Below, piece by piece: positions 6,234 through 16,343 of a stretch of 22,523 bases of DNA; the first letter of the stretch is position 1, and each line of letters begins with the position of its first letter. A program made the translations under genes and the position numbers. Source of the stretch: a virus. Below the pieces are notes generated by a model. The model was given only the letters and a program-made list of their open reading frames with translations, did not search any database and was not told the DNA's origin. The stretch lies in the IMG/VR virus record IMGVR_UViG_3300017756_000127, positions 1 through 22,523 of that record; one strand, given 5' to 3'.

Positions 6234-6623
6234 TCATTTCCCATGAACGGATACACGCTCACCGCCACCGTCTATTATATCTTGTATTAAGATAAGAAGC
6301 ATTTGTGTGATGATAGGCTTGTTGTCTAAATCACCATATCCCCACAGCAAATCATTTGTACTTCCAGTATCATCGTCAGTTATTGTTACTGATATTCCTA
6401 TCTGGTCAAAACTTTCTTGAGTAAGAGATACAAACATACTGCGCTCAGAAGAGAATACACCAGTGCCAGTTAGCCAGAGGCAACCGTCATAGCAGGTAGA
6501 TGTAGGGGAATATATAACAGCTTTTCTAGCTAATATAGCTTGGAAGCTACTATCCATTAGTATCTGATGGGTCATTTTTAAAACGCTGTCTGGGAAGTGT
6601 TCTTCCCTCTGAATAGTTTTCAT
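6234..6623 (-). CDS. hypothetical protein, 129 aa
   Basis: Soluble mixed alpha/beta protein with TSTCYDGCLWLTGTG near the middle, an acidic stretch (ITDDDTGSTND) and a hydrophobic C-terminal helix (PIITQMLLILIQDII). The start at 6623 overlaps the upstream zinc-finger gene by 74 bases, which is long; a start at 6575 or 6557 is possible but none has a good ribosome site (AGAGA precedes 6623). No family is recognised. An 83-base gap follows before the next gene, with only a bulged hairpin and no T-run. Confidence 0.55.
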   Translation of the reverse strand: MKTIQREEHFPDSVLKMTHQILMDSSFQAILARKAVIYSPTSTCYDGCLWLTGTGVFSSERSMFVSLTQESFDQIGISVTITDDDTGSTNDLLWGYGDLDNKPIITQMLLILIQDIIDGGGERVSVHGK

Positions 6624-6816
6624 ATGGTTTCTCTAGGTTTTGCCACCCCTTGCCATGATAGCAGGGGTCGCAAAACGTATCCCTTGCGGCTGTGATAATA
6701 AAGAACTCTATCTTTGTGTTTATCATCTTGCCACACTCTCTACACCTAGAAAATACGATAACAGGTTCAGATTTACTCTTTCGCTTTGAGTTTGTCTTTT
6801 TGTTTCTTAAACTCAT
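6550..6816 (-). CDS. small zinc-finger protein, 88 aa
   Basis: A basic N-terminus (RNKKTNSKRKSK) is followed by CRECGK (residues 25-30) and CDPCYHGKGW (about 49-58): two CxxC pairs about 21 residues apart, the layout of a treble-clef or ribbon zinc site. The start overlaps the annealing-protein gene by 44 bases; no strong ribosome site is seen, so translation may be coupled. Location beside recombination genes and the basic arm suggest nucleic-acid binding, which is inference. Confidence 0.6.
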   Translation of the reverse strand: MSLRNKKTNSKRKSKSEPVIVFSRCRECGKMINTKIEFFIITAARDTFCDPCYHGKGWQNLEKPYENYSEGRTLPRQRFKNDPSDTNG

Positions 6817-7363
6817 TGGTTACTTGTGCCTTTGCAACTTTGCCAAGAGTACCGATTGCTGCTGAATGCTTGCGCCACATAGCATCAATTTGCTCGGTAG
6901 ACTTTATATCAGGATGATTGAAGTCCTCAATGATAAGCGAACTGTCTTGCTCGTCAAGGTCCATAGGCAAGTCCTCACCAGCATAGACATTGAGGCCAAG
7001 GCCGTGAAAGGCAATAGCTTTGACAAGGCAACGCTGTAACGCTTTGTTGACTTGACCACCATCAGGATGAGCAATGGACTGGTTCTTGTGGTCCATAACG
7101 TAGTGAATCTCTGTGTGAGATATACCTGAGATGGTAACAGTCACAGCAACATATGTATGACCTTTGGTGTCACGCATAAACGGCAATGGATTGTCTTGAT
7201 TGTCACGGAAGATGTGCTTCTCAAACGTGGAGTCTGGGTACTTCTCCTTGACGTAAGCCCATGCCCAAGCCCATGACAGATAGTCAAAGCGACCTTTTTG
7301 CTGGACTTCTGCTGATACGTCAAAACGTGATAGAGTGTTCCATACTGAATCTTTAGTCATCAT
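6773..7363 (-). CDS. single-strand annealing protein, DUF1071 / Sak3 type
   Basis: 196 residues. DUF1071 hallmarks are clear: RFDYLSWAWAWAYVK (25-39), then GGQVNKALQRCLVKAIAFHG (102-121) and LGLNVYAGEDLP (122-133). Members of this family are phage recombinases that bind single-stranded DNA and anneal complementary strands, working with a 5'-3' exonuclease. The exonuclease gene lies one small gene upstream and SSB is also in the window, giving a full annealing module. The start at 7363 (MM) follows GGGG six bases upstream. It overlaps the 41-aa gene by 11 bases, indicating coupled translation. Confidence 0.88.
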   Translation of the reverse strand: MMTKDSVWNTLSRFDVSAEVQQKGRFDYLSWAWAWAYVKEKYPDSTFEKHIFRDNQDNPLPFMRDTKGHTYVAVTVTISGISHTEIHYVMDHKNQSIAHPDGGQVNKALQRCLVKAIAFHGLGLNVYAGEDLPMDLDEQDSSLIIEDFNHPDIKSTEQIDAMWRKHSAAIGTLGKVAKAQVTNEFKKQKDKLKAKE

Positions 7364-12498: not shown

Positions 12499-12918
12499 TT
12501 AAGCCTCCGTAAAGAATAGTGGTCTATAGTCTTCATTATTAATATCATCTGCGCTTCTAATTTTAAGCCATAGCTCCATTCGTGAACCTATAAATACAAC
12601 GTCTTTATTGAACTGAGTCAAGCTTGTTTTTGGGGGAATAACATCCCCATTTTCATCAACGCCAAGGAATATACCTCTGCCGCAAAGAGGCGATGGATAA
12701 TTTCTGTGAATCCAGAAGTATTGGTCTTCTTTGTAAAGACCTTCATCATCTATATAAACAGCATCGCCATTTTCATAGACTCTAACTGCTGTAAAGATTG
12801 TTGAGCCAATAAGCTCGTTGTAACCTTCATAACGTCCATTGGCTGTATTAGCTGGTGATATGGATATTGTCTGAGTGAAAGGGTCAATTACCGTTTCAAC
12901 TGATGTGAACTCTTGCAT
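12499..12918 (-). CDS. DUF3846-like protein, 139 aa
   Basis: Start at 12918 is set by AGGAGG five bases upstream. The segment from YNELIGSTIFTAVRV through GDAVYIDDEGLYKEDQ, then N-x-P-x-P-L-CGRGIFLGVDENGDV, to KDVVFIGSR follows the pattern of DUF3846, a small beta domain frequent on phages and plasmids (assignment from memory of the pattern). A C-terminal extension (MELWLKIRSADDINNEDYRPLFF) follows. Role unknown. An intrinsic terminator sits immediately upstream of its ribosome site, so its expression needs read-through or a promoter inside the 24-base gap. Confidence 0.65.
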   Translation of the reverse strand: MQEFTSVETVIDPFTQTISISPANTANGRYEGYNELIGSTIFTAVRVYENGDAVYIDDEGLYKEDQYFWIHRNYPSPLCGRGIFLGVDENGDVIPPKTSLTQFNKDVVFIGSRMELWLKIRSADDINNEDYRPLFFTEA

Positions 12919-12928
12919 GTGAACCTCC

Positions 12929-12943
12929 TGTGAATTGTTCACA
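12929..12943. promoter_or_regulatory. 15-bp palindrome TGTGAATTGTTCACA, candidate operator
   Basis: Perfect 6-bp arms (TGTGAA / TTCACA) around TTG. Two more TGTGAAC half-sites lie at 12904-12910 and 12918-12924. The arms share TTCACA/TGTGAA with the dyad at 8584-8616. The site sits between the T-run of a terminator and the ribosome site of the gene at 12918. Candidate binders are the XRE regulator and the ParB-like protein. Confidence 0.45.
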
Positions 12944-12978
12944 AAAAAAGGGTAGAGGCCATGAGGAACCCCTACCCT
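12943..12978 (-). terminator. intrinsic terminator after SSB
   Basis: On the minus strand AGGGTAGGGG and CCTCTACCCT form a 10-bp stem with one G-T pair and a 10-base loop (stem arms 12969-12978 and 12949-12958), followed directly by a run of seven T. It lies 26 bases past the SSB stop. Confidence 0.85.
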
Positions 12979-13004
12979 CTCATTCTATTCTAGGTTGGAG
13001 GCTC

Positions 13005-13436
13005 CTAGAACGGAATATCGTCTACAGGCTCACTGGTTGTACCGCCAGCCTGTGATGGACGAGATGCTGGTGCACCATCGTCTGATGACTTTGAGGCAAG
13101 ACGGAATGTGCTACCTGCACCTGCCAGCTTGACCTTGAAGGAACGTTGTTTAACACCGTCCTTCTCGTACTCCTCGATGATGGGGAAGCCCTGAACAAAG
13201 ACAGTCGTGCCTTTTGTTGCGTACTTCTCAATGACGTTGGATACGAGGCCCTTGCCATTGCTACCATCCCAGGCTTCTACACGATACCAGTGGGTCTTCT
13301 CCACCTTGTCGCCAGCTTTGGTAGTGTAGCCTTCATTGACTGCAACAGAGAAGTTAGCAACCTTAGTACCGTTTACGTCACGGATTTCTGGGTCAACACC
13401 AATGTTACCTGAGATAGTGATTTGTGCGAAGTTCAT
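13005..13436 (-). CDS. ssb: single-stranded DNA-binding protein (SSB)
   Basis: 143 residues from ATG 13436, chosen because AAGGA lies eight bases upstream; a frame from 13460 has no site. OB-fold SSB pattern: FAQITISGNIGVDPEIR (3-19), KVANFSVAVNEGY, KTHWYRVEAWDG (about 48-59), KGTTVFVQGFPIIEEYEKDG and RSFKVKLAGAG. The tail (about 118-143) is Pro/Ser/Gly-rich and ends DDIPF, the acidic tip through which bacterial SSBs recruit partners. It protects single strands made by the exonuclease and would work with the DUF1071 annealing protein. It has its own terminator downstream. Confidence 0.9.
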   Translation of the reverse strand: MNFAQITISGNIGVDPEIRDVNGTKVANFSVAVNEGYTTKAGDKVEKTHWYRVEAWDGSNGKGLVSNVIEKYATKGTTVFVQGFPIIEEYEKDGVKQRSFKVKLAGAGSTFRLASKSSDDGAPASRPSQAGGTTSEPVDDIPF

Positions 13437-15060: not shown

Positions 15061-15282
15061 TTACATCCAGTCGGTTGTGCCAAGGTTGTCAATCAAAGCA
15101 AATGCTCTGTCTGTATCGCCAGACTCTAATGCTTGGCGTACCTCGTAGTCATCCCAGATAGATGACCCTGCTATAATCATGTCACCTGCCATATCGTCAA
15201 CCATCTGGTCGTAAGCCTCTAGCTCGTCCAGTGTAGACTGTGTGATTGGAAGGATGTTTGAAGTGTTGATAGATGTAGTCAT
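15061..15282 (-). CDS. small acidic protein, first gene of the minus-strand operon, 73 aa
   Basis: Start ATG 15282 has AAGGAG six bases upstream. Strongly acidic (LDELEAYDQMVDDMAGDM, ALESGDTDRAFALIDNLG) with one or two helices. As promoter-proximal gene of the early-type operon and a small acidic protein, a host-takeover role is conceivable, as in other phages, but there is no direct evidence. The leader is 16 of 18 bases identical to that of ssb. Confidence 0.65.
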   Translation of the reverse strand: MTTSINTSNILPITQSTLDELEAYDQMVDDMAGDMIIAGSSIWDDYEVRQALESGDTDRAFALIDNLGTTDWM

Positions 15283-15358
15283 GTCATTCTCCTTGACGTT
15301 ATGTTTAACACTCACGCAATGCGGTGTTTATGGTTCACTACGACTTCCTCTGTTGCGG

Positions 15359-15387
15359 ATAGTCAATAGCTTTAGCCGAGGTGACAA
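15359..15387 (-). promoter_or_regulatory. possible promoter for the minus-strand operon
   Basis: On the minus strand TTGTCA (15382-15387) is followed after 17 bases by GACTAT (15359-15364). The -35 is close to consensus, the -10 weak. An overlapping TTGACT lies just downstream. It is placed correctly for the gene starting at 15282, but support is weak. Confidence 0.25.
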
Positions 15388-15401
15388 CATTCATATGATG
15401 G

Positions 15402-15447
15402 TTGGAAGGAACCGATTTGCGCCCTATAGCAAATTGGAAGGAACCGA
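15402..15447. repeat. 14-bp direct repeat flanking a small hairpin
   Basis: TTGGAAGGAACCGA occurs at 15402-15415 and again at 15434-15447 (32-base period). Between them ATTTGC (15415-15420) and GCAAAT (15429-15434) form a perfect 6-bp inverted repeat. This is the kind of arrangement seen in iterons or protein-binding arrays. Confidence 0.75.
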
Positions 15448-15850
15448 CCTTCTTATGCACTGAGTTAGAAGATTGCTATTTACTCTCCGTGTGCAAGGGA
15501 GTCATCATTCCATGATAAACTAACGGTTTGTGTGTGTGTTCCTCCCCCTAACCTCCGAAGAAGTTCTGAAGAGGATTGGATGCTACCCCTCGAAGGGGTG
15601 TGCATTCAATTTCTTGAAGTAACGCCTCTGGCAACGTCCCTCTTGATGCGAAGAGTAACGGCATGGAGCGTAGTGGTAATTCATCTACTTCAGATGAATA
15701 ACGAAGTGGAATGGCTTTACGTTATCAGAGAGAGGAAACGGCCCAGAAGTGTAGCGTGATTGACCTGACAAGGACAGGTCAGCCTGTCTGGCAAGACAAT
15801 GCGTAAGCAATCTAACGGACGGCAAAGCCCTCATTTCGTAAATTAGGGTA

Positions 15851-15881
15851 TTGACAGCTAGTGCGTTTTGCTTTGTATAAT
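15851..15881 (+). promoter_or_regulatory. sigma-70 promoter for the terminase operon
   Basis: TTGACA (15851-15856) and TATAAT (15876-15881), both full consensus, with a 19-base spacer, longer than the optimal 17. Transcription would begin near 15888, about 20 bases before the terminase small subunit start. Confidence 0.75.
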
Positions 15882-15908
15882 ACGTCCGTAACCAATTGGG
15901 TCTCGGAA

Positions 15909-16343
15909 ATGACAACAGCAAACGAACAACAACAAGAGCGTTATAAAAGCGGATTGGTTCCGATGGATGACATTGAGAAACATGCTCCGATGGCTAAAGC
16001 TGTGAATCAGCAGATAACAGAAACACAGCAGGAATTAGTGCATGCTATCTTGCATAATGGTTGCAACCCAGCAGAAGCAGCGGAGACGTTGGGTAGAAAC
16101 AAGAGCTGGGCTTATAATACACTGAAGAAACAACATGTTATCGAGTATAGACAACAGTTGGCTATGATGACTTTGGGGTGGGACGCTACACAAGCGATGG
16201 CGACAATGCGTGAACTGCTAAACAGTAAGTCACAGCATGTACGTCTCGAAGCGGCTAGAGACTTGATGGATAGAGCAGGATTCAGACAGGATGCAGTCAG
16301 GGCTCCCTCTACCGCAGTACAGATTAATTTCAACGTTGACTAG
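15909..16343 (+). CDS. terminase small subunit
   Basis: 144 residues from ATG 15909; upstream in-frame GTG at 15861 would place the start inside the promoter, so it is rejected. The ribosome site is weak (CGGA). A disordered N-terminus is followed by a helix-turn-helix-like region (about 38-75: ETQQELVHAILHNG, NPAEAAETLGRNKSWAYNTLKK), then QATQAMATMRELL-type helices and LEAARDLMDRAGF, a segment common near the end of phage small terminases. It would recognise packaging DNA and load the large subunit encoded one gene downstream. Its stop runs directly into GGGGCCCC (16344-16351). Confidence 0.78.
   Translation: MTTANEQQQERYKSGLVPMDDIEKHAPMAKAVNQQITETQQELVHAILHNGCNPAEAAETLGRNKSWAYNTLKKQHVIEYRQQLAMMTLGWDATQAMATMRELLNSKSQHVRLEAARDLMDRAGFRQDAVRAPSTAVQINFNVD

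Follow-up and report, generated by a model that had tools for sequence, protein, structure and literature searches.

A large structured RNA encoded beside the terminase small subunit gene in uncultured aquatic phages

Results

The locus and its borders

We studied positions 15283-15850 (568 bases) of IMG/VR record IMGVR_UViG_3300017756_000127, which derives from an uncultured aquatic phage and of which positions 1-22,523 were analysed (hereafter "the window", 22,523 nucleotides). The region lies just ahead of the DNA-packaging genes, between a divergent small gene and the terminase operon, and holds the following features.

15061..15282, minus strand: divergent small gene (73 aa), with its ATG at 15282 and a ribosome-binding site at 15287-15292; left border
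15306..15848, plus strand: the whole structured RNA, domain 1 and domain 2, about 540 nt; delimited by covariation and a covariance model match over domain 1 and by the fold of domain 2 (z about -4), and bounded only as far as possible, the true 5' and 3' ends being undetermined
15306..15539, plus strand: domain 1 (234 nt), closed by the long-range helix P1
15542..15848, plus strand: domain 2, the variable hairpin-rich 3' part, reaching up to the terS promoter (z = -4.08, 0 of 100 shuffles)
15851..15881, plus strand: terminase-operon promoter, TTGACA, a 19-nt spacer and TATAAT; the top-scoring site in the clusters scored, and visible in the alignment
15909..16343, plus strand: terS, the terminase small subunit (144 aa; PHROG 2538, E = 3e-9), with its ATG at 15909; right border

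An original prediction, made from the letters alone, had called this region gene-free, and we likewise find no supported gene between the minus-strand start codon at 15282 and the terS promoter. Two small open reading frames (15532-15759 on the plus strand and 15685-15921 on the minus strand) were considered as coding and rejected, as both run through predicted helices, and entire hairpins differ between relatives at these places.

Hairpin density and fold energy

Perfect hairpins (arms of at least 5, loops of 3-8) number nine in 15283-15850, against 2.6 in dinucleotide shuffles (0 of 200 reach nine), and none of the 74 same-size windows elsewhere on the contig reaches that count; with arms of at least 6 there are four, against 0.66 in shuffles. 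The claim of at least six perfect inverted repeats is thereby borne out, and the two hairpins that had been named (15679-15699 and 15761-15781) and the 14-bp direct repeat TTGGAAGGAACCGA (15402-15415 and 15434-15447) are present as described. What does not hold is the view that the hairpins are spaced like independent elements, since those in the left 235 nt are nested within long-range helices and the copies of the direct repeat are the two halves of one internal loop.

On the plus strand the region folds to -180.4 kcal/mol (z = -3.7; none of 100 shuffles matches it), whereas the minus strand is not much better than its shuffles (z = -1.2). Folded separately, domain 1 reaches z = -5.1 and domain 2 about -4 (-3.9 to -4.08; 0 of 100 shuffles). 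Two minus-strand stretches elsewhere in the window, 12536-13080 and 6541-7085, also fold unusually well (z about -5.5 and -5.0, from only 15 shuffles each); both are mostly coding.

Conservation beside terS

Relatives were gathered through terS (15909-16343), giving 80 IMG/VR loci, and those with enough upstream sequence, together with the window, formed 47 clusters at 92% identity. Judged by sequence alone, similarity across the region is patchy, with islands such as 15402-15457 and 15488-15540 recurring and the rest differing, because structure is kept and sequence is not. Short-pattern scans added distant relatives that carry the same RNA with a terS only 34-38% identical to that of the window. 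In the records checked the RNA occupies one place per record, and terS adjoins it wherever the contig extends far enough to tell. The upstream gene belongs to one small-protein family in most of these phages and is replaced by a different protein of 176-184 aa in the distant RNA-bearing ones; with terS as the constant neighbour, the RNA travels with terS. A direct DNA search of annotated phages with the region gave no match, and a genome scan with terL returned 15 MAG contigs with 0 matches to the RNA model, so that no host was learned.

Covariation and strand assignment

We combined an L-INS-i/MAFFT alignment, RNAalifold and a covariance model. In the alignment (A2; 14 sequences including the window, 75 pairs, 1023 cells scored), 92.2% of cells are standard pairs, and both-sided changes occur in 35 of the 75 pairs (107 cells). 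None of 500 shuffles reaches any of these measures, and pairing falls to 30-43% when the partner is slid by 1-3 columns. As the structure had come from these same 14 sequences, a covariance model (R1) built from the 14 was searched over 92 sources as a second test. Besides the window (15303-15543, 147.7 bits) it matches L154 and 25 further sequences outside the training set, which lie beside terS at the same place and have E values from 1e-6 to 1e-19; it matches none of 44 control loci (15 MAG loci and 29 GGAAGGA-pattern loci). In the 25 non-training members alone, 85.5% of cells pair and 40 of the 75 pairs show both-sided changes (162 cells; 0 of 500 shuffles). This second alignment was fitted to R1, which favours the structure; the sequences themselves are new. 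Many more diverged relatives (e.g. L020, L055 and L003) carry P1 yet fall below the reach of R1.

The G-U excess over A-C assigns the RNA to the plus strand: read on that strand, G-U and A-C cells number 96 and 11 in the first alignment and 119 and 38 in the 25 independent members. At the same places model scores are about 250 bits on the plus strand against 52-61 on the minus strand. Neither a DNA palindrome nor a minus-strand RNA would give such counts and scores; a minus-strand RNA, considered separately, is rejected by the fold z-scores and the G-U/A-C counts.

The region therefore encodes one large structured RNA, and covariation is the decisive evidence. A structured noncoding RNA was among the options first proposed for the region, with a search for compensatory changes as its check; that search, now run, found them abundant in old and new members alike, on the plus strand. 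A fold conserved despite changing sequence across dozens of related viruses almost certainly means that the RNA does a job.

Anatomy of domain 1

The elements of domain 1 are as follows.

15306..15325, plus strand: P1 5' strand, TAACACTCACGCAATGCGGT; pairs with 15520-15539 (helix 1, 90.9% of cells paired)
15520..15539, plus strand: P1 3' strand, the near-universal TGTGTGTGT; in 43 of 47 sequence clusters
15343..15357, plus strand: 5' side of helices H3/H4; pairs with 15488-15502
15361..15371, plus strand: 5' side of helix H5, AGTCAATAGCT; pairs with 15474-15485; conserved GUCAA/UUUAC core, 6 of 11 pairs changing on both sides
15393..15456, plus strand: twin-GGAAGGA module, inside P1 after H3, H4 and H5; outer stem, symmetric internal loop and inner stem
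15393-15405/15444-15456, plus strand: stem H8 (helix 8), 9 of 12 pairs changing on both sides, 97% paired
15406-15411/15438-15443, plus strand: conserved symmetric internal loop AAGGAA/AAGGAA, made by the 14-bp direct repeat
15412-15420/15429-15437, plus strand: inner stem H9 of the twin-GGAAGGA module
15402..15415 and 15434..15447, plus strand: copies 1 and 2 of the direct repeat
15500..15517, plus strand: hairpin Pz, TCATCAT-TCC-ATGATA, just 5' of the P1 3' strand

The 5' partner in P1 varies, mostly by changes that preserve pairing through G-U. When the upstream stretch is shuffled 60 times, no more than one shuffle equals the real pairing in 34 of 43 clusters. For the window the count is 2 of 60, and the partner was not found in L019, L032 and L047, so that P1 rests on the family and not on the window alone. 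Since TGTGTGTGT hardly ever changes although its partner does, this strand seems constrained beyond pairing.

The twin-GGAAGGA module occurs in 12 distinct versions, all 83-91 nt before the P1 3' strand, and its flanking stems change in concert (e.g. CCGATTTGC/GCAAATTGG against CCGCTAC/GTAGCGG). In the corresponding part of domain 1, other phages carry another hairpin, GCCGCACCACTGTACGGC; a scan of the collection for it returned contigs of the same phage family, as far as checked. At the place of Pz, unrelated perfect stems stand in L003, L009, L060 and L067. The least certain part of the model is H2, a short helix drawn by RNAalifold, which would overlap and compete with Pz. AAGGA, which is part of both AAGGAA loops, is complementary to the UCCUU with which 16S rRNA ends (3' end); there are no data on ribosome contact.

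Domain 2 and the exchange of modules

Domain 2 contains the following hairpins, with their counterparts in relatives.

15578..15607, plus strand: GGATGCTACCCCTCGAAGGGGTGTGCATTC; in L003, the nearest relative, this part has a hairpin that differs in sequence, GGAAGAAAAGCCCTCGATGGGCGTTCTTC
15679..15699, plus strand: ATTCATCT-ACTTC-AGATGAAT; from the perfect-hairpin count and the domain 2 fold
15761..15781, plus strand: TGACCTG...CAGGTCA; CAAACTG...CAGTTTG at the matching place in L019
15785..15798, plus strand: TGTCTGGCAAGACA; CATCTGGTAAGATG in L055

Single hairpins of this domain recur elsewhere with compensatory changes (TGACCTG/CAGGTCA against CAAACTG/CAGTTTG; GTCTGGCAAGAC against ATCTGGTAAGAT); beyond these recurring hairpins, the detailed fold of domain 2 in the window is a prediction. 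From about 15619 onwards domain 2 is almost unchanged (about 91%) in the nearest relatives, L003 and L004, whose domain 1 differs entirely, which indicates that the domains have been exchanged as cassettes at the P1 boundary. Elsewhere among the clusters, constant stems such as GCAAG...CTTGC carry what look like inserted hairpins.

Comparison with known RNA families

Searches against Rfam 15 gave no match for the window even at E = 10, nor for nine relatives at E = 1; there is no tRNA or tmRNA in the window, and we found no description of such an RNA in the open-licence literature. GOLLD and ROOL are ornate phage RNAs thought to act as stand-alone RNAs (PMC12286853). Like the RNA described here, GOLLD is large, phage-encoded and aquatic, with an elaborate covarying fold, a conserved and a less conserved part, and an unknown biochemical role (PMC12286853). 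It differs in that its conserved part is 3' rather than 5', in length (often more than 800 nt against about 540 nt), and in being often found near tRNA islands, whereas the RNA of the window is fixed at terS with no tRNA in the window. GOLLD forms a homo-oligomeric nanocage, and for our RNA there are no data on oligomerisation. The Rfam covariance model of GOLLD matches neither the window, at the gathering threshold or up to E = 10, nor the nine relatives, searched up to E = 1. A tRNA gene (Rfam, 37.9 bits) lies at 708-780 on the minus strand of one relative, L005.

ROOL (Rumen-Originating, Ornate, Large; 659 nt in one example) is likewise a phage-encoded ornate RNA of similar size (PMC12286853); it occupies a different genomic site, and neither its sequence nor its Rfam model matches the window or the nine relatives. 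With phi29 pRNA our RNA shares being phage-encoded and structured, and it adjoins terminase genes; no Rfam model match or homology to pRNA was found in the window. The phi29 pRNA is small and is a required part of a motor without terS. The lambdoid antitermination leaders (put, nut and qut) are also RNA or DNA elements near the start of a phage operon; they are short, and each follows the promoter that it serves, whereas the RNA of the window lies upstream of the conserved late promoter. Large ornate phage RNAs are a known kind of molecule; what appears new, as judged from Rfam 15 and the open literature, is the family, together with its site and the exchange of its modules.

Possible functions

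The fold, its strand, its fixed place beside terS, its conservation across diverged phages and its absence from Rfam are observed; what the RNA does has to be inferred. The region encodes a single plus-strand RNA in which a compact domain 1, closed end to end by P1, is followed by a variable 3' domain of exchangeable hairpins. It would be made during infection and act mainly on its own, as in GOLLD and ROOL, an inference made without transcript data. The folded object itself would then be the product, possibly as an oligomer and possibly holding protein, ribosome or terminase parts. By analogy with these families, and in the absence of transcript, partner, oligomer or phenotype data, we give a stand-alone ornate RNA about an even chance and no more, because the site by the late promoter and terS leaves room for a cis-acting leader or a packaging role. 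Its locked position there suggests involvement in packaging or in the switch to late functions, and being tied to one genomic site, unlike GOLLD and ROOL, could equally mean that it acts in cis or in packaging. An origin, a packaging site and an antitermination leader, all raised in the original prediction, are not excluded as the job of the RNA; they are now rivals about its function and no longer about what the sequence is.

A long late transcript could begin upstream of P1 and continue into terS, with the RNA as its 5' part and the fold controlling late transcription by antitermination, or terS translation. The RNA lies on the same strand as the late operon, directly upstream and always beside terS, and no intrinsic terminator was found at its 3' end before terS, so read-through into terS, and with it a role in cis, is possible. 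However, nearly all clusters have TTGACA-N19-TATAAT after the RNA and before terS, its spacer nearly always 19 nt, and scans of both strands in the sequence clusters found no other conserved sigma-70-type site. With the only conserved promoter downstream of the RNA, late mRNA from it lacks the RNA, making a simple 5' leader of that transcript unlikely. No conserved promoter was recognised upstream of P1 on the plus strand in the cluster scans, which does not exclude an upstream promoter of unknown type, and the fold in the window is, to our knowledge, far larger than known antitermination leaders. We consider a cis-acting leader unlikely, while keeping it in play. A search for a phage RNA polymerase (PF00940) gave no match in 12 relatives, but its control matched nowhere either, so that the result carries no weight. 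The 19-nt spacer exceeds the usual 17, which often means a need for an activator or for DNA twisting.

Alternatively, the RNA may serve packaging, as part of the packaging machine or as a regulator of terS, or the locus may be a DNA pac site. That the RNA stays locked to terS across 34-38% terS identity is in keeping with this, as is the different long hairpin that a cultured relative (Hodr, see below) carries at the same place. The terL and terS of the window nevertheless belong to ordinary families, we know of no contact between terminase and RNA in phages with terS and terL, and covariation with a G-U excess speaks for RNA and against a pac site acting as DNA only; the packaging explanation as a whole remains doubtful. 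A narrower proposal, that this is a new ornate RNA class working directly with the terS/terL terminase as scaffold, regulator or packaging component, its hairpin cassettes exchanged on a constant P1-closed core, is speculative and at present improbable; if true, packaging machines other than the phi29 type would have their first RNA component.

A replication primer or origin RNA, in which a folded pre-primer like ColE1 RNA II is transcribed towards an origin and the divergent early leader serves as its antisense partner, would draw on the turn of GC skew at about 15 kb and on the minus-strand gene, which starts within about 30 nt of P1, so that its early leader necessarily runs across P1 on the opposite strand. 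Gene direction changes where the skew turns, which by itself explains the turn, and no iterons or replication gene lie beside the region, which leaves this role very unlikely. Finally, that the region has no function as RNA and holds only chance or DNA-level palindromes, such as recombination or protein sites, would fit the exchange of modules between phages, but is scarcely tenable, since the helices are long-range, imperfect and covarying, with many more G-U than A-C cells, and already contradict it.

Very large structured RNAs known from bacteria and phages are few, and most are of open function. The family described here is spread over many uncultured aquatic phages; its alignment is deep, its core is defined and its modules have been swapped in nature, and its fixed place between early and packaging genes makes the purpose of ornate phage RNAs testable in any cultured member.

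The best cultured terminase relative is Pelagibacter phage EXVC031P Hodr (OQ414635.1; terL 55.6%, terS 33%), in which a 326-nt gap at the same place holds a single long near-perfect hairpin (about 125 nt), which does not belong to the RNA family described here. This hairpin (L082, 3665-3790: TTGCCAATGTAATAACTAG ... CTAGTTATATTGGCAA) lies in the divergent gap before the terS homologue and is followed by its own TTGACA promoter-like site, with a fold z of about -3.4 on the plus strand and -4.3 on the minus strand.
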